64,000 nt of DNA, taken from contig NZ_JABFCZ010000023.1 in the NCBI RefSeq assembly GCF_014692675.1, positions 1 through 64,000 of the forward strand, in the 5' to 3' direction. Below, one piece after another: positions 48,126-64,000 of this stretch. The DNA comes from Roseibium aggregatum. Lineage in GTDB: Bacteria; Pseudomonadota; Alphaproteobacteria; Rhizobiales; Stappiaceae. The notes beneath the pieces were generated by a model. The model was not told the origin of the DNA and did not search any database. It saw nothing but the letters and a program-made list of their open reading frames with translations. The position numbers were made by a program, and so were the translations under genes. Within the stretch, counting starts at the first letter, position 1. Each line of letters begins with the position of its first letter.

Positions 48126-49043
48126 TCAGGCGACACGGTGGCTGGTTGTCTGCGATATTCGGACCTGCGTGCGGAAATAATCCCGGAAAGCGGCCATTGC
48201 CGGCGTGAACTCGACATCCTTCCGCCAGACGAGTCCGACCTCCATCGGCGGAATTCGCACGTCCAGATCGACGGTTTCCAACCGTCTGCCTTCCAGGGAC
48301 CATGGTCGGTACACCATATCCGAAAGAATGGTGATGCCGTGGCCGTTGGCCACCAGGCTGCGCACGGCTTCGATCGAAGATGTCCTCAGCCTGACCCGTG
48401 GCTGGAAAGGCGTCTTGGACCAGTAACGCATGGTGGTATGGGCCGCTTCGTCAACCGTCAACATGACGTAAGGCTCGTTGGCGACGTCGTCGAAAGTGAC
48501 CTTTTCCCGCTCGGTGAGCTTGTGGTGGGAAGGGGTCCATAGGCGCCTTGTGGAGCTGATGAGCGTTTCCGATGCGATTTCCGGATTTGTGATGTTGGAG
48601 GTCAGAGCGACCCCAATATCGAACCGGCCGGCGATCAATCCCTCCTCGATCGTTTCACGGGTCATTTCATGGATGCGAAGCTCTAGGCCGGGTAAGGTGC
48701 GGGACAGCCTCTCCATATGGGCGGGCAGGAAGTAGCCGATCACGGTATAGGATGCGGCGACTGAAAGCGCTCCGGCAATCCTCGGTGAAGCCGGTATGAG
48801 GAGCGCTTCTTCGACTTTTGACAGGATTTCATAGCTGGAACTCAGGAATCGGCGACCGATATCGGTCAGTTCGACACCGCTGGTGGAGCGTACGAACAGG
48901 TCTGCACCCAGCGTCTTTTCCAGTTCCTTGATCGCTGTGGTAACCGCCGATTGTGAGATCGACAACTCGATCGCAGCGCGGCTTACCTGCCCGAGCTCGG
49001 CCGTTGCAATGAAATATTTCAGATGGCGAAGATTGAAGGACAT
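48126..49043 (-). CDS. LysR-family transcriptional regulator
   Basis: A 305-residue LTTR: N-terminal winged HTH (FNLRHLKYFIATAELGQVSR, LSISQSAVTTAIKELEKTLG) and LysR substrate-binding domain (about 90-295). ATG 49043 (MSFNLRHLK) is the standard start; the 27-residue upstream extension is unlikely. It is divergent from the pxpA operon and probably controls it in response to a pathway ligand. Confidence 0.9.
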   Translation of the reverse strand: MSFNLRHLKYFIATAELGQVSRAAIELSISQSAVTTAIKELEKTLGADLFVRSTSGVELTDIGRRFLSSSYEILSKVEEALLIPASPRIAGALSVAASYTVIGYFLPAHMERLSRTLPGLELRIHEMTRETIEEGLIAGRFDIGVALTSNITNPEIASETLISSTRRLWTPSHHKLTEREKVTFDDVANEPYVMLTVDEAAHTTMRYWSKTPFQPRVRLRTSSIEAVRSLVANGHGITILSDMVYRPWSLEGRRLETVDLDVRIPPMEVGLVWRKDVEFTPAMAAFRDYFRTQVRISQTTSHRVA

Positions 49044-49367
49044 AACCACTCGATGTTTTTGAATTCTTGGTTCATTAATATCAGAAAAACAGATAATGCA
49101 AAAATATCGTACATGCATATTCAAGTGGCATAATTAGAAAAGGTAGAAAAACCAGTTAAATAGAATGAAATCGCACGAGCCAATATCGGAAAAATAGATT
49201 GTCGGCCTCCAAAAAAATGAACTTTTTAATCTCCAAAAAATATGCGGCAATTTCCCTGCCGGGCGTCTTGCGTGTGTCCATCTGACGGACCTGACGCCAC
49301 CCAGAAACGGAAGACACGGGGTTTTCCGATACCGGAGTGCCTTCGGGCCAGATGGAGATGCATCAGG
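49044..49367. promoter_or_regulatory. AT-rich divergent control region between lysR and pxpA
   Basis: About 320 bases, clearly richer in A+T than its flanks, with A-runs (CTCCAAAAAA twice within 49205-49240) and near-palindromic ATGCATAT at 49112-49119. LTTR T-N11-A sites are expected here but too loose to place. No gene is seen. Confidence 0.45.
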
Positions 49368-50135
49368 ATGCCGCTCAAATCGGTCGATCTAAACTGCGAT
49401 ATGGGCGAAGGCTTCGGCCACTGGTCCTATGGCGACGCGCCTGACGAAATGCTTATGCCAATCATCAGCTCGGCCAATGTGGCGACCGGGTTTCACGCAG
49501 GCGATCCGAATCTCATGGACTCCGTCGTGCGCATGGTCGGTGAATTCGGCGTCGGGCTGGGCGCGCATCCCGCATATAACGACCTTCAGGGGTTTGGCCG
49601 GCGGGCGATTGCGGCAAACCCGGATGAACTCGTCAACGATATCCTGTATCAGACCGGAGCTTTGCGCGAATTCGGACGGCGATACGGTATTCCGCTCCAG
49701 CATGTGAAACCTCATGGCGCGCTCTACATGACGGCTGCGGCGGATGCGGAGCTCTCCCGTATTCTTGTTGAGGCTCTCCAGCGTACGGGCCCGGAACTCT
49801 ACCTTTATTGCATGGACATTTCCGAAACCTACCGGATCGCCCGTGAGGCCGGGCAGCCGGTTGTGCGCGAGTTTTACGCGGACCGGGATTATGACCGGAG
49901 CGGCTCTATCGTCTTTGCGCGCAAGATGCGCCGGCTCGATCCGGAACAGGTTGCGGAAAAATGCGTTCGCGCCTGCCTGGAGGGCAAAGTGAAGACGGTT
50001 GACGGCGACGACATCGAGATCGAGTTCGAGTCGATCTGCTTCCATTCCGATACGCCGGGAGCTTTGGCAATCGGGACCGCCGTGCGCGAAGCGCTGATTT
50101 CAAACGGCGTGAAAATTGCGGCTCCAGGCCGCTGA
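49368..50135 (+). CDS. pxpA: PxpA/YcsF (LamB-YcsF family) 5-oxoprolinase subunit A
   Basis: A 255-residue LamB/YcsF protein: [14 protein letters not shown] at the N-terminus, [40 protein letters not shown] and CFHSDTPGA. Length matches PxpA, which with PxpB/PxpC hydrolyses 5-oxoproline using ATP. Here it heads an operon that also holds a biotin carrier and biotin carboxylase, so the substrate may be a different amide or lactam. ATG 49368 has AGG a few bases upstream. Confidence 0.9.
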
Positions 50136-50167
50136 CATTCAAAGACCGGACAGAGGTAATCCGAACT

Positions 50168-50404
50168 ATGGCAAAACAGATCCGCTCCCCCTTGCCTGGC
50201 ATTTTTTATCGCCGTCCGGCGCCGGACCAGCCGCCTTTCGTCGAGGACGGCGGGTCGGTCGAGGCCGGGACCGTTGTCGGGCTTGTCGAGGTGATGAAAT
50301 CGTTTCACGAAGTCGTGGCCGAAGAAGCCGGAACCAATGTGCGTTTCGTGGCGGAAAACGAACAGCCGATCACCGTAGGTGTCGTCCTGGCGGAAATGGA
50401 CTGA
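50168..50404 (+). CDS. biotin carboxyl carrier protein (short)
   Basis: A 78-residue biotinyl/lipoyl domain alone, without the N-terminal region of AccB. IRSPLPGIFYRRPAPDQPPFV is the family start and EVMKSFHEV holds the biotinyl-Lys at about 44 (AccB has EAMKM). It would carry carboxybiotin from the adjacent biotin carboxylase to PxpBC. Only 3 bp separate it from the next gene. Confidence 0.88.
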   Translation: MAKQIRSPLPGIFYRRPAPDQPPFVEDGGSVEAGTVVGLVEVMKSFHEVVAEEAGTNVRFVAENEQPITVGVVLAEMD

Positions 50405-50407
50405 TCG

Positions 50408-51772
50408 ATGGATCTCTCGGGTCGCAAGCTGTTCATTGCCAACCGGGGTGAAATCGCCGTGCGTATCAACCGCGCTGCGAAATCGCTCGGCATGACCGTT
50501 GCCCAGGGATATTCCGAAGCCGACGGCGACATGCTGGCCGTGCGCCTTGCCGACCAGGCAGTAGAGATCGGTCCGCCGCATGCAACCAAGTCCTACCTGG
50601 ATATCGTCCGTGTCGTCGAAGCCGCAAAATCCGCCGGGGCGGATGCGGTACATCCCGGCTACGGTTTTTTGAGCGAAAACGCCGAATTTGCGGCGGCGGT
50701 TGAAGCTGCCGGCATGATCTTCGTGGGGCCATCCGCCGAGACGATCGCCCGGATGGGGGACAAGGCCAAGGCGCGCGAGGCGGCAGAAGCCGCCGGCGTC
50801 CCGATAGCGCCCGGCAGCGACGGACGGGTCGAGACGGTAGAGGACGCAATCGAGGCTGCCAAGGGAATCGGTTATCCGTTGATGATCAAGGCGGCTGCAG
50901 GCGGTGGCGGGCGCGGCATCCGTGTTGCCGATAACGACGATGATCTCAAACGTCTCGTGCCCCAGGCGCGATCCGAAGCCGAGGCGGCCTTTGGGGATGG
51001 AGGCCTCTATCTGGAGCGCATGATTGCCCATGCCCGGCATGTAGAGGTCCAGATCCTCGGCGACGGACAGTCGGCGGTGCACCTTTTCGAGCGCGAGTGT
51101 TCGCTTCAACGGCGGCGTCAGAAGGTCTGGGAAGAAGCGCCCGCCGCTTGTCTGCCGCAGGCAACGCGGGAGAGGATCTGCGCCGTCTCGGTCAGGTTGG
51201 CGGAAGCCGTCGGGTACCGCGGCGCCGGGACCCTTGAATATCTTTACGACCCGGAACGGGACGCGTTCTACTTCATGGAAATGAACACCCGGATCCAGGT
51301 AGAGCATCCGGTGACGGAAATGGTGACCGGGGCCGATCTGGTTGCCGAAATGATCCGCATCGCCTTTGGCGAACCGCTGCGGTTCGAGCAATCCGGGATC
51401 GCACTGTCCGGTCATGCCATCGAGGTCCGGGTCAATGCGGAGGATCCGGCAAGCAATTTCATGCCCTTCCCCGGAGTGGCGCAGAAGATGCGGGTTCCGG
51501 AGAATGTTCGTTTCGACACGATGCTCTACGAGGGCTATGCGATACCGCCCTTCTACGATTCCCTGATCGGCAAGCTGATCGTTCACGGCTCCAGCCGCGA
51601 GGAGGCTCTGCAGAAATTGCGCGAGGCCCTGGCGGAAATGGAGATCGAGGGTCTGAAGACCACGCTGCCTCTTTACCGGGCGCTGGCCGACGACCCCGAT
51701 GTTCAGGCCGACAACACAACCACCAAGTTTCTCGAGGCATGGCTGGAAACGAATGCCATCAAGGCCGCCTGA
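50408..51772 (+). CDS. biotin carboxylase
   Basis: A 454-residue AccC-type ATP-grasp biotin carboxylase: FIANRGEIAVRI, HPGYGFLSENAEFA, glycine loop KAAAGGGGRGIRVA, EMNTRIQVEHPVTEMVTG and the catalytic HAIEVRVNAEDP. It carboxylates biotin with bicarbonate and ATP. Second-copy status relative to fatty-acid AccC is likely because it sits with pxp genes rather than accB/aroQ. Confidence 0.92.
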   Translation: MDLSGRKLFIANRGEIAVRINRAAKSLGMTVAQGYSEADGDMLAVRLADQAVEIGPPHATKSYLDIVRVVEAAKSAGADAVHPGYGFLSENAEFAAAVEAAGMIFVGPSAETIARMGDKAKAREAAEAAGVPIAPGSDGRVETVEDAIEAAKGIGYPLMIKAAAGGGGRGIRVADNDDDLKRLVPQARSEAEAAFGDGGLYLERMIAHARHVEVQILGDGQSAVHLFERECSLQRRRQKVWEEAPAACLPQATRERICAVSVRLAEAVGYRGAGTLEYLYDPERDAFYFMEMNTRIQVEHPVTEMVTGADLVAEMIRIAFGEPLRFEQSGIALSGHAIEVRVNAEDPASNFMPFPGVAQKMRVPENVRFDTMLYEGYAIPPFYDSLIGKLIVHGSSREEALQKLREALAEMEIEGLKTTLPLYRALADDPDVQADNTTTKFLEAWLETNAIKAA

Positions 51773-51818
51773 GCGCGGCGTGCCCAACCGCCGCCCCCGG
51801 GGCAAGGAGTGACACGCG

Positions 51819-52694
51819 ATGAAGACACGCTATTCATACGGCGGAGACGAACATATCTTCGTCGAAGTCGATGAGGAAATGTCCCTGGACGCCTTCTTCA
51901 AAAGCCTTTCGATTACCAACGCGGTGCGCGACAGCGCCATTGAAGGCGTCACCGAAATCTGTCCGGCGAACGCGTCGTTTCAGATCAAGTACGACCCGGA
52001 CGTGATTGCGCCGGAGGACCTGCTGGCCAGGCTGAAGTCGCTGGAAAGTGCCGCGGAGACCGCAGAGAAGCGGATCAGCACCCGGATTGTCGAAATCCCG
52101 GTCTATTACAACGATCCCTGGACCCATGAGACACTCATGCGCTTCCGCGACCGGCACCAGGATCCCTCCGGGACCGATCTGGACTATGCGGCGCGCGTCA
52201 ACGGATACGAGACGGCGGAAGACTTCATCGTCGCGCACCATTCGAGCCCCTGGTTCGTTTCGATGGTGGGGTTCGTGTCCGGCCTGCCGTTCCTCTATCA
52301 GCTGGTCGAGCGGGAGCGGCAATTGCAGGTGCCGAAATACCTGCGCCCAAGGACCGACACGCCGAAACTGACCGTCGGATACGGCGGATGCTTCTCCTGC
52401 ATCTATTCGGTGCGCGGCGCCGGCGGGTACCAGATGTTCGGCATCACGCCCATGCCGATCTACGACCCGACACAGGAAGTCAATTACCTCAAGGACTTCA
52501 TGGTGTTCTTCAAGCCCGGCGACATCGTCAAGTGGAACCCGATCGACAGGGACGAATATGACCGGATCTGTGCGGAGGTGGAGGCAGGAACCTTCACACC
52601 GCGCATGGCGGAGGTCGAATTCGACCTGGAAACCTTCAACGCGGACATCGATGGCACCAACCGCAAGCTGATGGAGGCTCTCTATGGCGCTTAA
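51819..52694 (+). CDS. pxpB: PxpB/KipI family subunit (AHS1 domain)
   Basis: A 291-residue AHS1/KipI-like protein; the N-terminal 80 residues are a longer lead-in than in PxpB, then VEIPVYYNDPWTHETLMRF, GFVSGLPFLYQL and RTDTPKLTVGYGG...GGYQMFGITPMPIYDP. The same fold forms half of the carboxyltransferase of urea carboxylase. Overlaps pxpC by 11 bases. Confidence 0.88.
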   Translation: MKTRYSYGGDEHIFVEVDEEMSLDAFFKSLSITNAVRDSAIEGVTEICPANASFQIKYDPDVIAPEDLLARLKSLESAAETAEKRISTRIVEIPVYYNDPWTHETLMRFRDRHQDPSGTDLDYAARVNGYETAEDFIVAHHSSPWFVSMVGFVSGLPFLYQLVERERQLQVPKYLRPRTDTPKLTVGYGGCFSCIYSVRGAGGYQMFGITPMPIYDPTQEVNYLKDFMVFFKPGDIVKWNPIDRDEYDRICAEVEAGTFTPRMAEVEFDLETFNADIDGTNRKLMEALYGA

Positions 52695-53664
52695 GGTTCT
52701 AAAGTCGGGGCTTTTGACCACCATTCAGGATCTGGGCCGGCCGGGCTACTTCCATCTCGGCATTCCGATGGGCGGTGCGATGGATCGCATGGCTTTGAGG
52801 TCGGCCAATCTTCTGGTCGGAAACGAAGAGGACGCCGCGGCGCTCGAAGCGGTGTTCGTCGGGCCGGAACTGGAGTTTACCGCCGACGCCACGATCGCCG
52901 TGACCGGCGGTGAAATTCCGGTCAGGATCGACGGCGAAGAAAAGCCCTGTTGGACGGCCCTTGCTGTCAAGGCCGGTCAGAAACTTTCCTTCGGCTTCCT
53001 GACTTCAGGGGCACGGATCTATATCGCAGTTTCCGGCGGCATCGTGACACAGCCTTATCTGGGCTCCCGGTCCACATATGCCATCGGCGCGCTCGGCGGT
53101 GTTGACGGTCGGGCAGTGGCTGCGGGTGATGAACTGCCGGTCGGAACGCCCAAGAACACGGTCCAGGCGGGCACATCGGTGCCCGAGTCCCTGCGCCGGA
53201 AGACCGGCACGCCGACGGAGTTGCGCGTGCTGCCGGGCCTGTACTGGCACCGCATTACGGAGGCCGCGCAGAAGGGGTTTTTCGAGGACGAATGGATGGT
53301 TGCGCCGGAAGCCGACCGGATGGGCTATCGTTTCAAGGGAGGGCGGCCGCTGGAATTCGTCGAACGCGAGCAGCCCTTTGGCGCCGGATCCGATCCGTCC
53401 AATATCGTGGACAGCTGTTATCCTTACGGGTCGATCCAGGTTCCGGGAGGGACCGAGCCGATCGTTCTGCACAGGGATGCCGTTTCCGGTGGCGGTTACT
53501 TCATGATCGGCACCGTCATTTCTGCCGATATGGACTTGATCGGGCAACTGCAACCTCATATGCCAGTCAAGTTTGTTCCTGTTGACATGGAGGCCGCACT
53601 TGCGGCCCGCGCCGACCGCAAAGCTGCAATGGGCAGAATACGTACGGAGCTTGCCGGTGGATGA
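52684..53664 (+). CDS. pxpC: PxpC/KipA biotin-dependent carboxyltransferase-like subunit (AHS2 domain)
   Basis: A 326-residue AHS2/KipA protein: LLTTIQDLGRPGYFHLGIPMGGAMD, ALEAVFVGPELEF, YLGSRSTYAIGALGG, and QPFGAGSDPSNIVDSC...IQVPGG. With PxpB it forms the catalytic pair that, in urea carboxylase, transfers CO2 from biotin to the amide nitrogen. Its stop overlaps the next start (ATGA). Confidence 0.9.
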   Translation: MALKVLKSGLLTTIQDLGRPGYFHLGIPMGGAMDRMALRSANLLVGNEEDAAALEAVFVGPELEFTADATIAVTGGEIPVRIDGEEKPCWTALAVKAGQKLSFGFLTSGARIYIAVSGGIVTQPYLGSRSTYAIGALGGVDGRAVAAGDELPVGTPKNTVQAGTSVPESLRRKTGTPTELRVLPGLYWHRITEAAQKGFFEDEWMVAPEADRMGYRFKGGRPLEFVEREQPFGAGSDPSNIVDSCYPYGSIQVPGGTEPIVLHRDAVSGGGYFMIGTVISADMDLIGQLQPHMPVKFVPVDMEAALAARADRKAAMGRIRTELAGG

Positions 53665-54881
53665 ATGAATTGGGTCCAGCCCTGAGCGACAAGCCGGTTT
53701 CGGCGCCGGCGGTGAAGCGCCGCCGTCCGGCGCTCCGGGTGCTCGGTACGTCCGTCACGCAGCTTCCTGCGATCAAGGCGGCGGCCGAGGAAGATCTCGG
53801 GCTGGAACTCGAACTCATCACCTTGGACGGCACGGAAGCGCAGCGTCGCGGCGCCCTCCATCCCGAAAGTTTCGATGTCTACGACCAGTGGTTCCACGAC
53901 ATCGACCTGATCTGGCCGACCGGGTCGATCCAGTATATCGACATCAACCGCATTCACAGGTGGGACGAGATCAACGCCCTTCCAAAGACGGGTAGACTGA
54001 AACCGGAGTTCAGCCGCGCGCGCGGCGGCGATCCGGCCAAACGTCTGTTCGTTCAGTTGGACGGATCGCTGGGAGACATGGCGTCCGAGCGTATCTCGAT
54101 GGTTCCGACGGTGCATAATGCGGACAGTTTCGCGGTAATCGGTGCGGAGGCGGAATCCGTGACGAGCTGGGCTGCGCTACTGGATCCCGCCTGGTCGGGC
54201 CGGGTTGTCCTGCAAGCAGACGCGGCGATCGGCAGTCTCGATATGCTTCTCGCCCTGGAAGCGCGGGGAGAACTGCAGACACGGGACCTCGGCGATCTGA
54301 CCCTTGAGGAGATCGATTCCCTGATCGCAAAACTCAGGGCCTACCGCGAGAAGGGACATTTCAAGCGGTTCTGGAGCGATGAGGACGAAGCCATCGAAGC
54401 AATGATGGAAGAGGGACCTATCATCGGGTCACTATGGTGGTCGGGTGTCACGAGGTTGCGGTCCATGGGCAAGGAAGTCTCCATGGTCACGCCCCAGGAA
54501 GGGTATCGCGGCTGGTTCGGCGGTCTTGCCCTGTCGGTCCATGTCGACAAGTGGCTCAAGGACGCGGCCTACGACTATCTGAACTGGTGGCTTGAGGGGC
54601 GCCCCGGCGCAATCATGGCAAGGTGCGGAGCCTACATGGCAAATCCGGATGCGGTTCGCCCCTATCTCGACGACGCGGAATGGGATTTCTGGTACGAGGG
54701 AAAACCTGCGGCCGAGGACATCCGCGGTCAGGACGGGTCCGTGATCTTCAGCCGCGGCTCGAGACGCGAGGGCGGATCCTACCAGCAGAGAATGTCACGT
54801 GTGGCGGTCTGGGATGCCGTTATGAACGAGCACAATTATCTCGTTCGCCGCTGGGACCATTCTCTGGATGGACAAGGCTGA
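53661..54881 (+). CDS. PotD-like solute-binding-protein homologue without signal peptide
   Basis: A 406-residue protein related to spermidine/putrescine binding proteins and to the Tat-exported one at 60617 (shared EGYRGW, FWYEGKPA/W and a C-terminal RWD ending). The N-terminus (MNELGPALSDKPVSAPAVK) has no hydrophobic core and no twin-arginine motif followed by one, so it is predicted to stay in the cytoplasm. It starts inside the pxpC stop. It may act as a cytosolic sensor or substrate-binding partner of the carboxylase; a misassigned start is excluded only in part, since no upstream frame is available within pxpC. Confidence 0.75.
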   Translation: MNELGPALSDKPVSAPAVKRRRPALRVLGTSVTQLPAIKAAAEEDLGLELELITLDGTEAQRRGALHPESFDVYDQWFHDIDLIWPTGSIQYIDINRIHRWDEINALPKTGRLKPEFSRARGGDPAKRLFVQLDGSLGDMASERISMVPTVHNADSFAVIGAEAESVTSWAALLDPAWSGRVVLQADAAIGSLDMLLALEARGELQTRDLGDLTLEEIDSLIAKLRAYREKGHFKRFWSDEDEAIEAMMEEGPIIGSLWWSGVTRLRSMGKEVSMVTPQEGYRGWFGGLALSVHVDKWLKDAAYDYLNWWLEGRPGAIMARCGAYMANPDAVRPYLDDAEWDFWYEGKPAAEDIRGQDGSVIFSRGSRREGGSYQQRMSRVAVWDAVMNEHNYLVRRWDHSLDGQG

Positions 54882-54917: not shown

Positions 54918-55940
54918 TCAGTGTTTCAGCGGCTTCAGATAGGCAGGCAAGTCCGGTTCCGGAAACACCGACATGGCCATGAGGCGCTGGCGGGTGCGTT
55001 CCGCAGAAAGCCTCAGATGCTGCTCCAGAGCATCGGCCGCGGCCGCATAGGAGCCGCGCTTGATGAATTCCAGAACAATTGCATGCTCCTGGAGCCCGAC
55101 GACGAAAGGCCGGGAACCGATCACATGCGCGAACACGCTGTTGACTACCAGCGCGATCTGGCTTTGCCGGATCATGCGGAGCAGATGTGTGTTCGGTGAT
55201 TTCTCAAGGAGACGAATATGGATGTCGGTTTCCAGTTCCTCGATCGTCGCGCTGTTCAGACGCTGCCCGGACTTGAGGGCTTCGCTGGTTCGTGTCCACA
55301 TCGCCTCGATAATGCGCGGCTTCGTCACCGGTGCGCTGTCAAGCAACGCCAGTGGTTCGAGCTTGCTGCGCACGGCGAAGTAGTTTGCGATGTCCCGTGC
55401 TGTGAGCGGACCGACGATCCAGTGTGACCTCAAATCCTTGCGGACAAGGCCCCGGTCCTGAAACCGGGATAGCAACTCGCGAACGACCGTACGGCTGACG
55501 TCGTAGTGGTCGGCGACCGCCTGTTCGTTGATGAGGAACAGGCCGAACGGGAGAGCAAGGGAAATGTTGCTCTCGAAATCCTTCGCGATCCGTTCCGCCG
55601 TGCCGGGGCGGGGTTTGATCGGCTGATCCGCCGAAAGACCGAGCGTTTCATGTGTCAGGGCGATTCGTTGCGGCTCGGCGGCAGAGTCCGGCCCCACGAG
55701 AAAGCCGCGCCCCTCGAAGCGCGACAGGAGGCCTTGCTGCTGTAGTTCGTTCAAGGCCGTTCGGACAGGCGTGCGGCTGGTGCCGAACAGGCGCGCGACC
55801 GGATCTTCGGTCAGCACGGTTCCGTCGGTGAGGAGGCCCTGTTCAATGGCGTTCTGAAGAGCATTCTTGATTTTCAGATAGCGCGGCTCAGGGCGGCCGT
55901 TATCGTAGACGACAGCGTTTTCATTCTCGGTCTTGTCCAT
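54918..55940 (-). CDS. GntR/FadR-family regulator with two winged HTH domains
   Basis: A 340-residue regulator from ATG 55940 (AAGG upstream; a GTG at 55958 is also possible). Two separate GntR-type winged helices are visible: YLKIKNALQNAIEQGLL...SRTPVRTALNELQQQGLL (about 20-80) and, about 90 residues on, LINEQAVADHYDVSRTVVRELLSRFQDRGLV; then the FCD ligand domain (about 180-335) with its Asp/His metal residues (ELETDIHIRLLE). Tandem GntR wings are unusual. It is divergent from the transporter operon and convergent with the upstream one. Confidence 0.85.
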   Translation of the reverse strand: MDKTENENAVVYDNGRPEPRYLKIKNALQNAIEQGLLTDGTVLTEDPVARLFGTSRTPVRTALNELQQQGLLSRFEGRGFLVGPDSAAEPQRIALTHETLGLSADQPIKPRPGTAERIAKDFESNISLALPFGLFLINEQAVADHYDVSRTVVRELLSRFQDRGLVRKDLRSHWIVGPLTARDIANYFAVRSKLEPLALLDSAPVTKPRIIEAMWTRTSEALKSGQRLNSATIEELETDIHIRLLEKSPNTHLLRMIRQSQIALVVNSVFAHVIGSRPFVVGLQEHAIVLEFIKRGSYAAAADALEQHLRLSAERTRQRLMAMSVFPEPDLPAYLKPLKH

Positions 55941-55982
55941 TCGCTTGCCTTGTGTCACCGCGCTTTGTCCCTTTAAGAATAA

Positions 55983-56160: not shown

Positions 56161-57270
56161 ATGATGGAACTAATCCGCCTCACCAAAGCGTATAAGGGCG
56201 TTCCCGCAGTCCGGGACGTTTTCCTGATCGTCCGGGAAGACGAGTACCTAACGCTCCTGGGCCCCTCCGGCTCAGGAAAGACAACTTTGCTTCGCCTTCT
56301 CAGTGGACTGGAGAAGCCGGATGCCGGGCAGATACATCTGAACGGTGAAGATGTCACCTATCGGCCTCCCCATTTGCGCGGGCTTGGAATTGTTCAGCAG
56401 AACTATGCCCTGTTCCCGCACATGAGTGTCGAGGACAACGTTGCCTTCGGGTTGCGGTACCGGCTGATCGATCCTGTCACAGATGAGGGGGAAGTAAAAC
56501 GACGGGTCGCGGAAACCCTGGAACTGGTCGGTTTGACCGGATTCGAAGCGCGCATGGTCGGCCAGATATCCGGTGGGCAGAAGCAGCGCGTGTCGCTTGC
56601 GCGAACCCTCGTGACCCGCCCAAAGATCTGTCTTCTCGACGAACCGCTCGGCGCGCTGGATGCAAACCTGCGCGAACGGATGACCGTGGAGCTGCGCAAG
56701 ATCCGCGAAACGCTCGGCGTGACATTCCTCCACGTGACCGGAAACGAAACGGAAGCCCTGGCGATGGGCGACCGGATGGTTGTTCTGGACAAGGGAAGCA
56801 TCGTTCAGGCCGACCGGCCGGACGTCATCTTCTCGATGCCTTCGGACGTCCGGGTTGCGCGGTTCGTCAACACCTATAACGTTCTGGAAGGAGCGGTCCG
56901 GGACGGCGAATTCCAGTCGGCCGGTCAGGCCATGACCCTGCCGGAATATGCCCGCGGCAGCGAAGCGGGCTTCTACGCAATCCGCCAGGATGCCGTCGAG
57001 ATCAATGCCGCAGGCACGGTTCCGGGGCCCGGACGCACGGGTCTTCAGGCGACCTATATTGCGAGCGAATTCCTGGGCAGCCGCTTTGCTTACATCTTCC
57101 GGATGCCGAATGGCGGCGTCTTCGAGGTGGAACGGCATCTGAGCCACTCCGATCCGGTCACCTACAAGGGGGGCGAGGCCTGCTCGCTTTCCTGGAACCT
57201 TTCCGATGCGCTGGTCTTCGACCCGTCCGGCGCCGCTCTTGAAACCACTGTCTTCAAAGGAGCCGCATAA
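56161..57270 (+). CDS. PotA-like ABC ATPase with altered H-loop
   Basis: A 369-residue importer ATPase with TOBE domain (about 285-360). Walker A GPSGSGKT (34-41), Q-loop VQQNYALFPHMS, signature ISGGQKQR (136-143; Ile for Leu) and Walker B CLLDE (157-161) are present. The H-loop reads HVTGNETEAL where VTHDQ is expected, so the conserved His is Gly at about 194. There is no clear Shine-Dalgarno sequence before ATG 56161. It shares a TAATG overlap with the next permease gene. See the finding on paired ATPases. Confidence 0.88.
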   Translation: MMELIRLTKAYKGVPAVRDVFLIVREDEYLTLLGPSGSGKTTLLRLLSGLEKPDAGQIHLNGEDVTYRPPHLRGLGIVQQNYALFPHMSVEDNVAFGLRYRLIDPVTDEGEVKRRVAETLELVGLTGFEARMVGQISGGQKQRVSLARTLVTRPKICLLDEPLGALDANLRERMTVELRKIRETLGVTFLHVTGNETEALAMGDRMVVLDKGSIVQADRPDVIFSMPSDVRVARFVNTYNVLEGAVRDGEFQSAGQAMTLPEYARGSEAGFYAIRQDAVEINAAGTVPGPGRTGLQATYIASEFLGSRFAYIFRMPNGGVFEVERHLSHSDPVTYKGGEACSLSWNLSDALVFDPSGAALETTVFKGAA

Positions 57271-58181
57271 TGGACGGGGCTGCCGTCGATACGCGTCTTG
57301 CTTCCGCTGCCCCGTCCAGGGACGGGTCCGGCTTTTTCCGGCGCCACGGACATCTGCTGCTGCTGGCGCCGGGGGTGATCTGGATGGTTCTGTTCCTGAT
57401 CGTTCCGCTGGCCATGATGGTCTATGTCAGCTTCTGGACGCAGACGACCTTCGCGATCAAGCCGGATCTGACGCTCAAGTCCTGGGCGACATTCTTCGCA
57501 TCCGAAACCTATTTCGGGGCTCTGCTCAGAACCTTGCGGATCTGGTTGACCGTTCTCCTGCTGACCTTTCTTTTCGGCTACCCGACCGCGCTCTATATCG
57601 GCCAGTTCGTGAGGAACAAGACCGTCCAGACGATCCTGCTGGTTGCGTGTGTCATTCCGTTCTGGACGTCGTTCCTGATCCGCGTCCTGGCCTGGCGGCC
57701 GATGCTCGGCAAGGAAGGGGCGATCAACATCGTCCTGCAGGGCCTGGGCATTATCGATCACCCGATCGAGGTTCTTCTGTTCACCGAGCTGTCGGTGATC
57801 ATCGGCATGGTCCAGATCTATGTCGTGTTCATGGTCGGCCCGGTCGCTTTCATGCTCGCGCGGATCGATGACAGCCTGTTCGAGGCCGCGCGCGACCTCG
57901 GGGCCTCTCCGATGACGATCTTCCGCAAGATTACCTTTCCCCTGAGCCTGCCGGGGGTCGTCGTTGGAGCCATTTTCGTTTCGGTCATGGTGCTCGGCGA
58001 GTTCGCCACCGCTTCGGCTCTGTCGGGCCGGAAGGTCAACCTGCTCGGCAATATCATCGTCACTCAGGTCGGTTCACTCAAATGGGCGTTCGCCGCCGTG
58101 ATCGGCGTTGTCCTGACGGTTGTCATGGCGACCGTGATCACCGCGCTGCTGCGGGTTGTGAACCTGCGCCGCGAGCTGTGA
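57270..58181 (+). CDS. PotB-type ABC permease
   Basis: A 303-residue permease with six transmembrane segments (first at about 28-50) and an EAA loop at FEAARDLGASPMTIFRKITFPLS (about 205-227). It belongs to the spermidine/putrescine-type permeases. It begins in the TAATG overlap with the ATPase gene and is followed 16 bp later by the PotC-type partner. Confidence 0.93.
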   Translation: MDGAAVDTRLASAAPSRDGSGFFRRHGHLLLLAPGVIWMVLFLIVPLAMMVYVSFWTQTTFAIKPDLTLKSWATFFASETYFGALLRTLRIWLTVLLLTFLFGYPTALYIGQFVRNKTVQTILLVACVIPFWTSFLIRVLAWRPMLGKEGAINIVLQGLGIIDHPIEVLLFTELSVIIGMVQIYVVFMVGPVAFMLARIDDSLFEAARDLGASPMTIFRKITFPLSLPGVVVGAIFVSVMVLGEFATASALSGRKVNLLGNIIVTQVGSLKWAFAAVIGVVLTVVMATVITALLRVVNLRREL

Positions 58182-58197
58182 GGGAGATCCTGGAACC

Positions 58198-59055
58198 ATG
58201 AATCAGAATGCTGCCATCCGGACTTTGCTCGCACTCTACACGGCCCTGTTCCTCGCCTTTCTCTACGGTCCCTTCGTCGTCATGGCGATCATCAGCTTCC
58301 AGCAGGGACCGGAAGGCGGCCCGCAGTTCCCGATCATCGAGTGGTCGACCTTCTGGTACAAGCACGTGCTTGGTTTCGCGCCGCCGTCCCGCGTGGCGCC
58401 CCTGCCGATCGGCGAGGCGCTGACCCGTTCGCTGACGCTGGCCTTTGCGACCATGGTCGTCTCCACGGTGCTCGGCACTCTGACGGCGCAGGCGTTCCGC
58501 AGCCAGTTCAAGGGCTCCGGCTTCGTCTTTTACCTGGTGGTCCTCGGCATGATGGTACCAGGGGTTCTGCTGGGGCTCGGCATGGCCCTGGTGGCCGACC
58601 AGTTCGGTATCGACCGCAACTGGTGGAGCACCGCCTTCGTCCTGCACGTGGTCTACACCTATCCCTTCGCCTTCCTCGTCATGCTCGCGATCTTCAACCG
58701 CTTCGACAAGTCGATCGAGGAGGCCGCCTGGACGCTTGGCGTGCCTCCGGGAAGAACCTTCCGGAAAGTGACGTTCCCGATGATTTTCCCGGGTGTTCTC
58801 TCCGCCATGCTGTTCGCGTTCACGCTCAGCTATGACGAGTTTCCCAGGACCCTCTTCACGGGTGGCCGGGAGGTGACCATGCCGATTGCGATCTACGGCA
58901 CCTTCGCGGTCGAAATCCACCCGAACCTCTTTGCCTTCGGGGTGCTGACGACGCTGTTCTCCTTCGCGCTTCTCACGATCTACGGCGTGCTGATGAGCAT
59001 GTCCGTGCGTCGGGCCCGTCTGCGGGCGACCGGCCTGCAGGAGGATGTGGCATGA
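58198..59055 (+). CDS. PotC-type ABC permease
   Basis: A 285-residue permease with six transmembrane segments and the EAA loop IEEAAWTLGVPPGRTFRKVTF (motif start near 180). It pairs with the PotB-type subunit. Its stop overlaps the following SDR start (ATGA), linking transport to metabolism. Confidence 0.93.
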   Translation: MNQNAAIRTLLALYTALFLAFLYGPFVVMAIISFQQGPEGGPQFPIIEWSTFWYKHVLGFAPPSRVAPLPIGEALTRSLTLAFATMVVSTVLGTLTAQAFRSQFKGSGFVFYLVVLGMMVPGVLLGLGMALVADQFGIDRNWWSTAFVLHVVYTYPFAFLVMLAIFNRFDKSIEEAAWTLGVPPGRTFRKVTFPMIFPGVLSAMLFAFTLSYDEFPRTLFTGGREVTMPIAIYGTFAVEIHPNLFAFGVLTTLFSFALLTIYGVLMSMSVRRARLRATGLQEDVA

Positions 59056-59798
59056 GCCGGCTCAAGCATCATCGGGCAGTCGTCACGGGTGCCGGGGCCG
59101 GTATCGGACGGGCAATTGCCCAGAGGCTGGCCGAAGAGGGCGCGAAAGTTGTCGTCAATGATCTCCTGGCCGAAAGCGCCGAGGCAACGGTTGCCCTGAT
59201 TTCAAAGGCAGGCGGTACAGCCATCGCTTCTCCCGGAGACGTCAGCAACCCGCAGGACGTGGATCAGGCCTATCGGCTCTGCGAGGACACCTGGGGCCAC
59301 TGCACGCTCGCGGTGAACAACGCCGGTATCGTGCACCAGGCCCGACTGGCGGAACTGGACCTCGCCGACTGGGACCGCATGATCGCCGTCCACCTGCGCG
59401 GGTGTTTCATCGGCTGCCGGCGGGCCATCGGTCCGATGCTGGAGGCCGGTGACGGCGTGATCGTCAATATCGCGTCCCAGCTCGGCCAGATCGGCGGCAT
59501 CGAACTCACCCATTACAGCGCGGCGAAGGCCGGGATCATCGGTCTGACCAAGTCGCTCGCGCGCGAAGTCAGCGCGCAGGGTGTGCGCGTTAACGCCGTC
59601 GCTCCTGGTCCGATCAATACCGAACTGGTGCGCGCCCTTTCGAAAGACTGGCAGGCCGCGAAGGCGGCGGAGCTGCCACTCGGACGTTTTGGAGAACCTG
59701 AGGATGTCGCCGCCACGGTCGCGTTCCTCGCCTCCGATGACGCGAAAATCTACGTCGGCCAGACGCTTGGGCCGAATTCCGGCGACGTGATGCTTTGA
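59052..59798 (+). CDS. short-chain dehydrogenase/reductase 1
   Basis: A 248-residue classical SDR: cofactor loop TGAGAGIGRAIA (12-23), NNAGIVH (about 90), catalytic Ser in NIASQLGQ (about 140), and YSAAK (Tyr about 157, Lys about 161). An Asp-like residue after beta-2 (VVNDLL) favours NAD. It oxidises or reduces a hydroxyl/carbonyl of the imported compound. It is followed after 14 bp by a second SDR gene. Confidence 0.9.
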   Translation: MSRLKHHRAVVTGAGAGIGRAIAQRLAEEGAKVVVNDLLAESAEATVALISKAGGTAIASPGDVSNPQDVDQAYRLCEDTWGHCTLAVNNAGIVHQARLAELDLADWDRMIAVHLRGCFIGCRRAIGPMLEAGDGVIVNIASQLGQIGGIELTHYSAAKAGIIGLTKSLAREVSAQGVRVNAVAPGPINTELVRALSKDWQAAKAAELPLGRFGEPEDVAATVAFLASDDAKIYVGQTLGPNSGDVML

Positions 59799-59812
59799 AG
59801 GAGAAGAACGGC

Positions 59813-60565
59813 ATGAAGACGGTTTTGATCACGGGAGCCGGTATCGGGATCGGTCGGGCGACGGCAAAGGCCTTTGGTGCGGCGGGTTATCGCGTGATCG
59901 TGACGGACGTCCTGCCGGACGAAGGCGCGTCGGTCGTCGAAGAAATCTCCGCGGCCGGCGGGACGGCCGAGTTCCATCCGCTCGATGTGACGTCGACGGA
60001 GGCCGCCAATGCGGTCGTTGCCATGGTGGAAGCCAATTACGGCGCGATCGATACGGTGGTCTGTAATGCCGGCATCGCTCACAAGGTGCCGCTCGATGAA
60101 CTGAGCGACGAAAAATGGGACCATACGTTCGACGTCGATCTCAAGGGAATGTTCCGGGTCATTCGCGCGGCCGCGCCCAAGATGCGCGCAGCGGGAACCG
60201 GTTCCGTCGTCTGTCTGTCGTCGATCATGGGCGTTGCCTACGGCTGGGACGAGCATGTTCAGTACTCGTCCGCGAAATCCGGCGTTGTAGGTATGGTTCG
60301 GGGTCTTGCGGTCGAACTGGCGCCGTCCGGCCTCAGGGTCAACGGTGTCGCGCCCGGCTATATCCGCACCGCTCAAGCTCTTTCCGAAAAACATTCTCTC
60401 GGCCCGGAAGGTCTGGCGCAGGCCGCCGACTTCATTCCGATGGGCCGTGTCGGTGAAGCCGAAGACATCGCCGACGTCATCCTTTTCCTCGCTTCGGACG
60501 CAGCCCGGTACCTGACCGGTCAGGTTGTGACCGTTGATGGAGGATTGCTGGTCGGACGCTACTGA
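59813..60565 (+). CDS. short-chain dehydrogenase/reductase 2
   Basis: A 250-residue classical SDR starting at ATG 59813 (AAGGAG at 59799-59804; the in-frame TTG at 59795 is not needed). TGAGIGIGRATAKAF cofactor loop, CNAGIAH, CLSSIMG with the catalytic Ser, and YSSAKSG with Tyr/Lys are intact, as is the C-terminal QVVTVDGG. VTDVL after beta-2 favours NAD. It differs enough from SDR 1 to act on another step. Confidence 0.9.
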   Translation: MKTVLITGAGIGIGRATAKAFGAAGYRVIVTDVLPDEGASVVEEISAAGGTAEFHPLDVTSTEAANAVVAMVEANYGAIDTVVCNAGIAHKVPLDELSDEKWDHTFDVDLKGMFRVIRAAAPKMRAAGTGSVVCLSSIMGVAYGWDEHVQYSSAKSGVVGMVRGLAVELAPSGLRVNGVAPGYIRTAQALSEKHSLGPEGLAQAADFIPMGRVGEAEDIADVILFLASDAARYLTGQVVTVDGGLLVGRY

Positions 60566-60616: not shown

Positions 60617-61828
60617 ATGGGACAACTTAGCATAAACCGCCGCCGTTTCCTTGCATCGGCCGGCGCTCTCGCCGGAACCGCGACCTTCATGCGTCCGGGC
60701 ATGCTGCGGGCACAGGAACTGGCCAGCCAGGAACTGCGCACGGTCGGCCTGTCCGTGACGGTGCAGGAACGCATTCTGAACGACTTCAAGGCAAAATCCG
60801 GCGTAGGCGCCGTCTCCGGCAAGGCGGATATTTTCCCGAACACGCAGACGGAACTTCTGTCCGGATCCGACGCCTACGACTGCTGGGAAACCATCGGCGA
60901 GCGTCTGCCGGCGATGACCGTCACGAAGACGATCAAACCGATCGATACGGCCGACCTGAAGAACTGGGACAGCATCCGTCCGATCTTTACCGAGACGGAT
61001 CCCAAGCTGCCGGCATCTGCCCAGATATCCGGACAGATCTGGGCGGACGAAGCCAAGACGAAACTCTGGATGGTTCCGACCGTCTTCAACTTCGACTCCA
61101 TCGGCTATCGTCCGGACCTGGTCAGCGCCGAGGAAGCCAACACCTGGACGTCTCTCTTCGACGAGAAATTCAAGGGCAAGACCGGCCTCAACGTCGATCC
61201 CCTGATTGCCTTTGGTCAGGCGATCCTGGCGATGAATTCGCTGGGTCTGCTTGACGTCAAGAACCCGGGCAATCCGAATGCCGAGGAAATCGATGAAGCG
61301 GCCAAGTTCCTTGTGTCCAAGAAGAAGGATGGTCAGTTCCGCGCCCTTTGGGGTGACTTTGGTGAACTCGTCAACCTGCTGGCTTCCGGCGAAATGATCC
61401 TTGCCGACGCCTGGCAGCCGGCCGTGATGGCGGTGAAGGCGCAGGGCATCCAGTGTTCCTATGCCGTTCCGAAGGAAGGCTACCGGGGCTGGGCCATCGG
61501 TATTTCCGAGATCGCGAACACGCCGAACGAGGAAGCGGTCAAGGCCTATGCCGACTACTGGCTCTCCGGTCCCCCGGCCATCACCGTGTCCGAGCAGGGC
61601 TACTACTCGCCGACCACCAAGATCAAGGACGTCATGGATCCCGACAAATATGCCTTCTGGTACGAGGGCAAGCCGTGGGTCGGTCCGGAAGAACGCGGCA
61701 TCAAGGAAGGCGACCTGCGCGACGGCGGGTCTCTCGAAGAGCGTGCGTCTCACGTGGCGTACTGGCACCAGTGGCCGGACGAATACGATCACCTGATCGC
61801 GCGTTGGGACGAGTTCCTGAGCGCCTGA
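60617..61828 (+). CDS. PotD-like Tat-exported solute-binding protein
   Basis: A 403-residue binding protein with a Tat signal (NRRRFLASAGALAGTATFM, 8-26). Motifs WMVPTVFNFDSIGYRPD and GEMILADAWQPAVMAV are typical of PotD/SBP_bac_8 proteins. It supplies the PotBC-type permeases upstream. It resembles the signal-less homologue at 53661, which lies in the neighbouring operon. Confidence 0.92.
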   Translation: MGQLSINRRRFLASAGALAGTATFMRPGMLRAQELASQELRTVGLSVTVQERILNDFKAKSGVGAVSGKADIFPNTQTELLSGSDAYDCWETIGERLPAMTVTKTIKPIDTADLKNWDSIRPIFTETDPKLPASAQISGQIWADEAKTKLWMVPTVFNFDSIGYRPDLVSAEEANTWTSLFDEKFKGKTGLNVDPLIAFGQAILAMNSLGLLDVKNPGNPNAEEIDEAAKFLVSKKKDGQFRALWGDFGELVNLLASGEMILADAWQPAVMAVKAQGIQCSYAVPKEGYRGWAIGISEIANTPNEEAVKAYADYWLSGPPAITVSEQGYYSPTTKIKDVMDPDKYAFWYEGKPWVGPEERGIKEGDLRDGGSLEERASHVAYWHQWPDEYDHLIARWDEFLSA

Positions 61829-61912: not shown

Positions 61913-63022
61913 ATGGCCGATTACGACCTGGAGCTTGTCAAGCTTCGCAAGGTTTATCCCGGCGGTACTGTTGCCGTCGAAGGCTTCGATCTGAGGGTCG
62001 AGCGGGGAGAGTTCATCTCCTTCGTCGGGCCGTCGGGTTGCGGCAAGACGACGACCCTGCGGATGATTGCCGGGCTCGAAAGCATCAGTGGCGGCGATCT
62101 CCTGATCCGCGGCCAGAACTTCACCCAGGTACCGACGGAACGGCGTCCGACCTCAACGATTTTCCAGAATTACGCGATCTTTCCGCATATGACCGTGCGC
62201 CAGAACATCGAGTTCGGGCTGCACGTCCGCAAGGTCGCTTCAGCCGACGTGAAGAAGCGTGTGGATTCCATCATCGACAAGCTGCAGCTCGGCGATATCG
62301 CCAACGCCAAGGAAGGCTCCCTGTCCGGCGGCCAGAAACAGCGCCTGGCTCTTGCGCGTGGCCTGGTTACGGAACCGGAGATCCTCCTGCTCGACGAACC
62401 GCTGGGCGCCCTGGACGCGAACCTGCGCAAATCGATCCAGGAAGAACTCAAGATTCTCCAGCGCGAGCTGAACATCACCTTCGTTTTCGTCACCCATGCC
62501 CAGTCGGAGGCCTTGAGCATGGGCGACCGGGTCGTCGTCATGAATTCCGGCAAGGTGGAGCAGATATCAGCACCGTTCGATCTCTACACCCGGCCGAAAT
62601 CGCCCTTCGTCGCCCGTTTCATCGGACGCAACAAGATCATCGAAGGCCAGCTCTCGGAGGCGGCAAACGGCCGGGCGGTGGTCAGGACCCGCTTCGGAAC
62701 GCTTTCCGGCGTGCCGTCCTTCGATACGTCGACGGCCTCGACCGATGCGAGGGTTCTGCTTGTGGCTCCTTCCGAATATGTCGATATCCTGCCGGCCGGA
62801 GCGCCGCAGGACGGTGGGCAGACCGACACCGTGTCCGGCCAGGTGAGCGCGATCGATGCTGTCGGCCAGTTCGTCTATGTCACGGTCCGCCTCGATGAAG
62901 ATCTGAGCATCCGCATAGAGACCCACCGGGAAAAGATCGGCCAACGCGGTATCGAAATTGGCGGTCAGGTCGACCTGCGCTGGCAGTCCGAGCGGGCGAC
63001 TGTCGTCCTGGAAGCTGCGTGA
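61913..63022 (+). CDS. PotA-like ABC ATPase, canonical
   Basis: A 369-residue importer ATPase with all motifs intact: Walker A GPSGCGKT (39-46), Q-loop IFQNYAIFPHMT, LSGGQKQR (137-144), Walker B LLLDEPLGALD and H-loop VTHAQSEAL (His about 195), followed by a TOBE domain. It is the second ATPase of an operon with only one permease pair, and may pair with the H-loop-deficient ATPase at 56161. Confidence 0.92.
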   Translation: MADYDLELVKLRKVYPGGTVAVEGFDLRVERGEFISFVGPSGCGKTTTLRMIAGLESISGGDLLIRGQNFTQVPTERRPTSTIFQNYAIFPHMTVRQNIEFGLHVRKVASADVKKRVDSIIDKLQLGDIANAKEGSLSGGQKQRLALARGLVTEPEILLLDEPLGALDANLRKSIQEELKILQRELNITFVFVTHAQSEALSMGDRVVVMNSGKVEQISAPFDLYTRPKSPFVARFIGRNKIIEGQLSEAANGRAVVRTRFGTLSGVPSFDTSTASTDARVLLVAPSEYVDILPAGAPQDGGQTDTVSGQVSAIDAVGQFVYVTVRLDEDLSIRIETHREKIGQRGIEIGGQVDLRWQSERATVVLEAA

Positions 63023-63028
63023 TTTGAG

Positions 63029-64000
63029 ATGCAGGACGTTGACCACCTGGCGCGCCAATCAGCGGCTTCGATTGCCCGGGCGCTGGCGGCCGGACAAGCC
63101 GACCCGGTCCGATTGACCGAGCACTGCCTGGAGAAGATCGGGCAGCAGACATCTCCCGTATTCCTGAATGTGACGGCGGACCGGGCACTTCGGGAGGCGG
63201 AGGCCGCTTTCAAGCGGCTGAAAGCCGGCAATCCGGCATCGCCGCTCGACGGTGTCCCCATGGCGTGGAAGGACCTTGTCGACTTCAAGGGTGAAACCAC
63301 GACGGCAGCCTCCGATATCTATCGCAACGCGGCGCCTGCCAGCGACGATGCCCCGGTCCTGGCCAATGCGACAAATGCGGGCATGATTGCCCTCGGCAAG
63401 GTCAATCTTTCGGAGTTCGCTTATTCGGGCCTCGGACTGAATCCGCATTTCGGCACGCCGTTGAACCCGCACGATCCGGTCACACCACGAGCGCCGGGCG
63501 GGTCTTCGTCGGCGTCAGCTGTTGCGGTCGCCTCCGGGCTCGCGCCCTGCGCAATCGGAACGGATACCGGCGGATCGATCCGTATTCCGGCCGCATTCAA
63601 CGGAGTGGTCGGCTGCAAGTCCTCCGAAGGCCGGATTCCCACGAAAGGCGTTTTCGCACTGTCGAAGACACTCGACACGGTCGGGCCGCTGGCCCGTTCC
63701 GTTGAGGATTGCGTCCTGCTCGACATGGTTCTTCGCGGTGCGGTGACGACGCCGGTAAGGCGGATTCCGGCGGAGACTCTCAGGATCTTCGTTCCGGAGA
63801 CCGTTGTCCTCGACGATCTCGAGCCTGCCGTTGCCGAAAATTTCGAAAACAGTCTGTCGCGTCTGGAGCGCGCGGGAGCGCGCCTCACCAGAGGCCCCTT
63901 GCCGGAATTCACAGAAGCGGCGCGCCTTGCCGAAGAAGCCGGATCGATCACCGCTGCGGAAGCCTATGTGGAACACCGCGACCTGGTCGACGGGCCGCAG
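63029..64000 (+). CDS. amidase-signature-family hydrolase (5' part, runs off window)
   Basis: 324 codons are visible from ATG 63029; the gene continues past 64000. Catalytic triad of the amidase signature family is present: Lys81 (MAWKDLVD), cis-Ser in APGGSSSASAVAVASG (about 159-161) and nucleophilic Ser183 in GTDTGGSIRIPAAF. These enzymes hydrolyse carboxamides (compare allophanate hydrolase, AtzF, GatA). It is co-directional with the ATPase gene 6 bp upstream, so the operon ends in amide hydrolysis. Confidence 0.92.
   Translation, partial: MQDVDHLARQSAASIARALAAGQADPVRLTEHCLEKIGQQTSPVFLNVTADRALREAEAAFKRLKAGNPASPLDGVPMAWKDLVDFKGETTTAASDIYRNAAPASDDAPVLANATNAGMIALGKVNLSEFAYSGLGLNPHFGTPLNPHDPVTPRAPGGSSSASAVAVASGLAPCAIGTDTGGSIRIPAAFNGVVGCKSSEGRIPTKGVFALSKTLDTVGPLARSVEDCVLLDMVLRGAVTTPVRRIPAETLRIFVPETVVLDDLEPAVAENFENSLSRLERAGARLTRGPLPEFTEAARLAEEAGSITAAEAYVEHRDLVDGPQ

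Follow-up and report, generated by a model that had tools for sequence, protein, structure and literature searches.

In a stretch of 64,000 nucleotides of Roseibium aggregatum DNA (contig NZ_JABFCZ010000023.1, positions 1 to 64,000; the whole stretch is referred to as the window), homologues of the 5-oxoprolinase subunits PxpA, PxpB, and PxpC are encoded together with a biotin carboxyl carrier protein (BCCP) and a biotin carboxylase (BC), which raises the question of what reaction such a set of proteins catalyzes. As judged from sequence, it is fairly likely that the encoded enzyme opens a cyclic amide ring and depends on ATP, bicarbonate, and biotin for this. The five genes form a tight run on the forward strand (49368-53664) in the order PxpA, BCCP, BC, PxpB, and PxpC, with intergenic gaps of 32, 3, and 46 bases followed by an overlap of PxpB and PxpC, and all of them exceed the Pfam curated cut-offs (Table 1). 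An earlier note on this DNA had described these parts as separate genes of one operon, which is borne out for all five; its span of 49368-54881, however, also takes in a solute-binding-protein-like gene beyond position 53664.

PxpB and PxpC carry the two halves of a carboxyltransferase (CT), and this CT is likely of the urea carboxylase type. With 72.7 bits the window PxpB stays below the cut-off of its equivalog model TIGR00370 (145.55) and scores 124.2 bits against urea_carbox; PxpC reaches 224 bits against NF045499/PxpC_5OPro (cut-off 500) and 236.6 bits against urea_carbox. The E. coli proteins pass the same PxpB and PxpC models with 355.6 and 591.8 bits, respectively, which counts against an ordinary ATP-dependent 5-oxoprolinase (PxpABC) whose biotin genes ride along or serve another carboxylase. 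The 24 window-type PxpB sequences of alignment A1 match both the urea carboxylase and the PxpB models, and homology between the CT halves of urea carboxylase (TIGR02712; K. lactis 3VA7/5I8I) and those of the window extends across most of the sequence. When PxpB and PxpC are concatenated for a maximum-likelihood tree (58 rows), the urea carboxylases (16) and the window types (13) form clades with supports of 100/100 each, which are united with 100/99. The same union was obtained in a quick tree of 77 rows with a support of 99, from which seven long rows were dropped and 12 more thinned to give the 58; both CT trees are unrooted.

The counterpart of PxpB Lys173 in K. lactis urea amidolyase is, by alignment, Lys1605, which is described in an excerpt of PMC5770610 as the likely general base of the CT, the exchange K1605A severely inhibiting the enzyme. 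Lys173 is thus predicted to act as general base in the window enzyme as well. Grouped by how each locus was picked, Lys occupies this position in the window, in 80/80 loci collected through PxpB similarity, in 9/9 plasmid loci collected through PxpC, and in 14/14 collected through their carrier; a separate count of 93/93 is partly definitional because the window type was labelled by the Lys itself there. It is further present in three loci of a phylum-wide sample that match the window PxpB with at least 452 bits, and in all 19 single-chain urea carboxylases. E. coli and the 38 remaining phylum-sample places, which match the window PxpB with 0-69 bits or not at all, carry Arg instead (39/39), as do six solved PxpB/KipI-type sequences of five proteins, two of them from one M. 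smegmatis protein. Additional urea-carboxylase-like residues that are rare in the Arg types are Y174, C194, and Y204 of PxpB and D243 and S268 of PxpC; the Arg types show Trp at PxpB 204 in 39/39 and Ser at PxpC 243 in 37/38 cases. The predicted PxpB fold ranks urea amidolyase/urea carboxylase first (template modelling score 0.67-0.68; E. coli YbgJ 0.46), with K. lactis urea carboxylase as top match in the PDB, although this ranking is merely supporting owing to a weak core of the model (mean predicted local distance difference test score 67.9, residues 171-229 below 50).

The BC leads to a different relative. Window-type BCs keep 15 of the 17 AccC positions examined, which we take to be active-site positions; position 203 is variable and position 236 is Arg (92/92 rows, 91 distinct), i.e., Arg stands in place of AccC His236. 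In a quick tree of 37 BC rows, the window type forms one clade (100) beside AccC (92), whereas the BC of urea carboxylase groups with chains of this genome that have the size of methylcrotonyl-CoA or propionyl-CoA carboxylase subunits (95). Since the BC groups with AccC and the CT with urea carboxylase, the enzyme looks like a mosaic of a urea-carboxylase-type CT and an AccC-type BC. The proposal of a discrete-subunit relative of urea carboxylase stands in part; urea carboxylase is a single BC-CT-BCCP chain, the window proteins are separate subunits, and an origin by fission of urea carboxylase is disfavoured by the grouping of the BC with AccC. The carrier motif E[VA]MK[ST][FY] is present at 89/89 loci of the window type where a carrier lies within reach, in contrast to E[SA]MKME in urea carboxylase, and Lys44, correctly singled out in the earlier note, is the lysine of the window motif EVMKSF. 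Neither AccA nor AccD was found among the profile matches of the window genes scanned, where the CT genes are of the CT_A_B and CT_C_D families. The genome holds a single CT_A_B gene and a single LamB_YcsF gene, both in this operon. An AccB-AccC-like pair (an AccC-like BC with an adjoining carrier gene) is located elsewhere, along with four frames that bear a BC, three of them 672-691 aa and the fourth 1154 aa long, which by size are of the acyl-CoA carboxylase and pyruvate carboxylase types; because of this pair and these four chains, the BC and carrier of the operon are extra copies.

With 285.6 bits, the window PxpA passes the PxpA subfamily model NF003814 (cut-off 226), and database records annotate a 5-oxoprolinase subunit PxpA, both in favor of the ordinary 5-oxoprolinase; its scores stay below the cut-offs of three equivalog models and of a further subfamily model. 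Residues N9, D11, E14, H43, H67, K114, H116, H226, and D228 are kept. N121 and G227 are changed in 89/89 relatives and R184 in 83/89 (kept in 6), the window having M, A, and S at 121, 184, and 227, respectively. These three residues, a marker set chosen in this analysis rather than established functional residues, are invariant in 23/23 ordinary PxpA and, except for one G227, in eight Arg-type loci with a BC. Due to the loss of residues that are invariant in ordinary PxpA, these changes argue against 5-oxoproline as the substrate. One common BC-CT core occurs with either of two PxpA subtypes (69 and 20 loci). Considering the curated models, the replacement of Arg173, the PxpA residues, and the presence of BC and carrier within the operon at 76/80 loci, the plain 5-oxoprolinase is disfavoured and appears quite improbable.

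Conservation of the gene set was followed at 80 loci kept from at least 552 relatives in a PxpB similarity scan; PxpA, BCCP, BC, and PxpC had to share the strand of PxpB and lie no more than 4 kb from it. The complete set was observed at 76 of the 80 loci. In case of the remaining four (L021, L028, L049, and L050), PxpB is situated less than 1.5 kb from the edge of its contig, and BC and PxpC are present nonetheless. As 76 relatives keep the set and the four misses sit at contig edges, the arrangement is not due to chance. The window PxpB is 96% identical to that of Roseibium aggregatum, the nearest named relative among the matches listed. Among 289 alphaproteobacterial genomes drawn evenly and probed with the carrier family NF005457, 19 exceeded the cut-off at 20 places, of which 18 were inspected, the other two being the window and L140. 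At 14 of the 18, PxpA, carrier, and PxpC accompany a PxpB that has the PKY motif, and BC is present at 13 of these; in L177, PxpA is located 5.7 kb upstream, past transporter genes. The four weakest places lack PxpA, PxpB, and PxpC, with a BC adjoining the carrier in three. In total, the set occurs in 16/289 alphaproteobacterial genomes, in one case without BC. The survey of such clusters suggested in the earlier note thus shows them to be widespread in the Alphaproteobacteria and not peculiar to the window.

A second draw of 150 genomes spread evenly over the phylum and probed with CT_C_D yielded 61 places in 45 genomes: 30 Arg-type loci without BC within 4 kb (among them L116, scored in this way although a BC about 4.5 kb off, a carrier, and PxpA lie on the other strand), eight Arg-type loci with BC, 19 single-chain urea carboxylases, and four of the window type. 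In addition, 15 plasmid loci were hand-chosen among 60 matches listed of 742 records. L059 contains a broken second pxpABC-like remnant (L059:3869-6467) upstream of an intact window-type cluster, and its PxpB also has Lys at the key position; this remnant, which like L117 lacks a PxpC partner, was kept apart in the residue counts.

The neighbours of the cluster suggest lactam or cyclic-amide chemistry. Genes for 4-aminobutyrate (GABA) transaminase (gabT) and succinate-semialdehyde dehydrogenase (gabD) adjoin it in Ruegeria TM1040, Agrobacterium T29, and Aestuarium. At thresholds of more than 500 bits for gabT and more than 600 bits for gabD, and with 38 Arg-type and 19 urea carboxylase loci as controls (57), strong gabT matches were found at 9/80 loci versus 0/57 (Fisher p 0.01) and strong gabD matches at 8/80 versus 0/38 and 0/19, these p-values being guides only, since the samples are related and the controls are taxonomically broader with shorter loci (about 16 versus 18.5 kb), which weakens the comparison. 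Weaker gabT and gabD matches occur at 7 and 2 of the 80 loci, 2 and 1 of the 38 Arg-type loci, and 0 and 1 of the 19 urea carboxylase loci, respectively. Both genes are present at 4/15 plasmid loci. They are situated upstream or downstream depending on the locus, involve both PxpA subtypes, and at all nine gabT loci among the 80 are accompanied by a TorT-type transporter. HyuA and HyuB together were observed at 19/80 loci versus 0/57 controls and HyuA at all at 20/80 (p 9e-6), with the importer type of the window at 13 of these 20; HyuAB was found at 0/15 plasmid loci. In the carrier-picked sample, HyuAB occurs at 2/14 core loci and gabD at one. Within the amides and lactams considered in the earlier note, gene context points to lactams or cyclic amides.

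For members beside gabT and gabD, conversion of 2-pyrrolidinone into GABA would be a likely reaction and is our best guess. In Aspergillus nidulans, 2-pyrrolidinone utilisation involves LamA and LamB; LamB has lent its name to the PxpA family, LamA is a urea-carboxylase-like single-chain protein, and this fungal pair may serve as a functional precedent by analogy. The assignment does not extend to the window, however, because no protein of this genome comes close to GabT (39% identity at best) and gabTD is not in reach at any of the 23/80 loci with the importer type of the window; GABA as product is not supported for this genome. For the window member, a different ring (lactam, imide, or hydantoin-like) is the probable substrate.

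Two further alternatives were considered. First, the enzyme might carboxylate an open-chain urea, guanidine, or amide in the manner of urea carboxylase, with PxpA cleaving the product. The common CT branch and the amidase in the downstream gene run agree with this; on the other side, the amidase scores only 183.6 bits against allophanate hydrolase (cut-off 511.05), lactam opening is known for the family of PxpA, and the neighbours include caprolactamase-like HyuAB or, elsewhere, genes of GABA catabolism, so that we regard this alternative as unlikely. Second, the enzyme could be a biosynthetic carboxylase whose carboxylated product is stable, PxpA then having a different role. A complete BC, carrier, and CT are present, but the context consists mostly of importers, regulators, and catabolic enzymes, and PxpA is present at all 76 loci with sequence reaching it and at 14/14 of the second sample; this is highly improbable.

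For the cyclic-amide enzyme we presume the following course. The subunits would assemble into a complex in which BC spends ATP to load a carboxyl group from bicarbonate onto the biotin that Lys44 of the carrier bears. PxpB-PxpC, with Lys173 serving as general base, would pass this group to N or O of the amide in a lactam-like substrate. The activated ring would then be hydrolysed by PxpA, and the carboxyl group would depart as CO2 to leave an amino acid. In this scheme PxpA would play the part that allophanate hydrolase has after urea carboxylase, whose usual partner the window lacks, having PxpA instead. That a biotin CT feeds PxpA, as had been supposed, has strong sequence support from the CT branch, the general-base Lys, and the scores of PxpB and PxpC below the 5-oxoprolinase subunit models.

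Several observations weigh against this reading of the operon. The deep forks of the quick BC tree are weak (67), and the carrier has MKS/MKT and not MKM. The stems of both joined CT clades are long, with 1.65 and 1.48 changes per column, which makes attraction possible, although long-branch attraction is disfavoured due to the residues common to both clades. The eight Arg-type loci with BC keep Arg173, i.e., BC linkage and Lys do not always go together, and L179 (a 4.7-kb contig) has PxpA-carrier-PxpB-PxpC with no BC between carrier and PxpB. By the same thresholds, the three window-type loci of the phylum sample show gabT, gabD, and HyuAB in 0/3 cases. An amidase is located nearby at 10/80 window-type, 2/38 Arg-type, and 13/19 urea carboxylase loci and is therefore not specific. 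The lack of a close GabT in this genome and of gabTD at the loci with its importer type, as described above, belongs here as well.

Known systems resemble the window operon in part. E. coli PxpABC (pxpBCA) has a PxpA of the same family and split CT_A_B and CT_C_D genes, but no adjoining BC or carrier gene and Arg at position 173. PxpB and PxpC of the ordinary 5-oxoprolinase are assumed to phosphorylate 5-oxoproline, according to an excerpt of PMC13274462. The HyuAB-type caprolactamase (CapAB) opens a lactam by means of ATP, as is predicted for the window enzyme, and in an excerpt of PMC8453981 activation of the lactam (lactim) as a carboxy-ester is one of three proposed mechanisms; its proteins are unrelated to the window enzyme and use no biotin, CapAB-like genes being merely neighbours here. 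The Arg-type loci with BC (L105, L109, L115, L120, L121, and L124, and apart in the tree L098 and L125) also combine PxpA and PxpBC with a BC and a carrier domain, but lie off the common branch of urea carboxylase and window CTs, with PxpB and PxpC fused in 5/8. By its entry title, PDB 9YX5 contains the PxpBC-type pair MSMEG_0435-0436 of M. smegmatis bound to a long-chain acyl-CoA carboxylase complex; unlike the window, this pair is of the Arg type. In the NCBI annotation, the PxpC proteins of such loci already bear the name "biotin-dependent carboxyltransferase family protein". No title or abstract among the papers listed in literature searches aimed at PxpBC with BC/BCCP describes this combination, although the 2017 PxpABC discovery paper may mention it.

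Table 1. Features of the window and the adjoining part of the contig (window positions unless marked as contig)
Feature	Position	Strand	Basis
LysR-type regulator	48126..49124	-	Open reading frame (ORF) divergent from the operon; LysR annotated at the same place in relatives
PxpA-like (LamB/YcsF) ring-opening hydrolase	49368..50135	+	Pfam LamB_YcsF 287.2 bits; NCBIfam NF003814
Biotin carboxyl carrier protein, 78 aa	50168..50404	+	Pfam Biotin_lipoyl 46.5 bits; NCBIfam NF005457 110.8 bits (cut-off 87)
Codon of predicted biotinylated Lys44	50297..50299	+	Sequence (EVMKSF); motif conservation
Biotin carboxylase	50408..51772	+	Pfam, three biotin-carboxylase domains; NCBIfam NF009471 721.1 bits (cut-off 686); AccC active-site positions; tree
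PxpB-like carboxyltransferase half (CT_C_D)	51819..52694	+	Pfam 138.8 bits; NCBIfam urea_carbox above PxpB score; best PDB match
Codon of PxpB Lys173	52335..52337	+	Alignment counterpart of K. lactis urea amidolyase Lys1605
PxpC-like carboxyltransferase half (CT_A_B)	52684..53664	+	Pfam 298.1 bits; NCBIfam; D243 and S268 shared with urea carboxylase
Solute-binding-protein-like gene overlapping PxpC	53661..54881	+	Pfam SBP_bac_8
GntR-family regulator between two operons	54918..55958	-	Pfam GntR and FCD
Polyamine-type ABC importer	56161..59055	+	ATPase 56161-57270 (also Pfam); permeases 57270-58181 and 58198-59055
Two short-chain dehydrogenases	59052-59798, 59795-60565	+	NCBIfam
Second solute-binding protein	60617-61828	+	ORF; Pfam; leader resembling twin-arginine translocation (Tat) type by eye
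Second ABC-type ATPase	61913-63022	+	ORF; position and annotation of homologues
Amidase	63029..64000, past the window end to contig 64399	+	Profile match
HyuA	contig 64439-66529	+	Caprolactamase-like pair after amidase
HyuB	contig 66548-68320	+	Caprolactamase-like pair after amidase
Second HyuA/HyuB pair	contig 68417-72409	-	Opposite strand, caprolactamase-like (both pairs: L167:4439-12409)

The product of the solute-binding-protein-like gene overlapping PxpC shows no obvious signal peptide by eye, and several relatives look alike, which suggests a cytosolic role. The best NCBIfam models of the importer genes are PhnT2/PotA, PotB, and PotC, all below their cut-offs. For both HyuAB pairs, the top NCBIfam models are caprolactamase CapA/CapB, with scores below cut-off as well. 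A LysR homologue on the minus strand was found anywhere in the locus at 62 of the 80 related loci. On an Acidiphilium plasmid, bioB (biotin synthase) follows the cluster (L163:13294-14274). Xanthine-dehydrogenase-type genes are situated near the clusters of L159 (16773-20402), L168 (24121-27777), L053, L081, L085, and L093, and L168 contains a second PxpA in addition. A polysaccharide-deacetylase gene, whose best model is allantoinase PuuE (below cut-off), and a CobW-like GTPase recur beside clusters (L160:21569-23828, L032).

Taking the family as a whole, it is conceivable, with a probability somewhat below even, that these clusters represent a widespread second ATP-driven chemistry of lactam opening, in which biotin carboxylation replaces phosphorylation, a urea-carboxylase-type CT works with a BC and a carrier of the acetyl-CoA carboxylase type and with a variant PxpA, the gabTD-associated members convert 2-pyrrolidinone into GABA, and the change from Arg to Lys at PxpB 173 marks the switch. 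If this is true, clusters that are labelled 5-oxoprolinase or acetyl-CoA carboxylase, found in 16/289 alphaproteobacterial genomes, would represent a separate lactam-degrading enzyme, and residue 173 would help to separate phosphate-using from biotin-using members. The presence of biotin genes beside PxpABC homologues would be accounted for, urea carboxylase would be tied mechanistically to 5-oxoprolinase, and an enzyme for the degradation of 2-pyrrolidinone-type compounds would become available.

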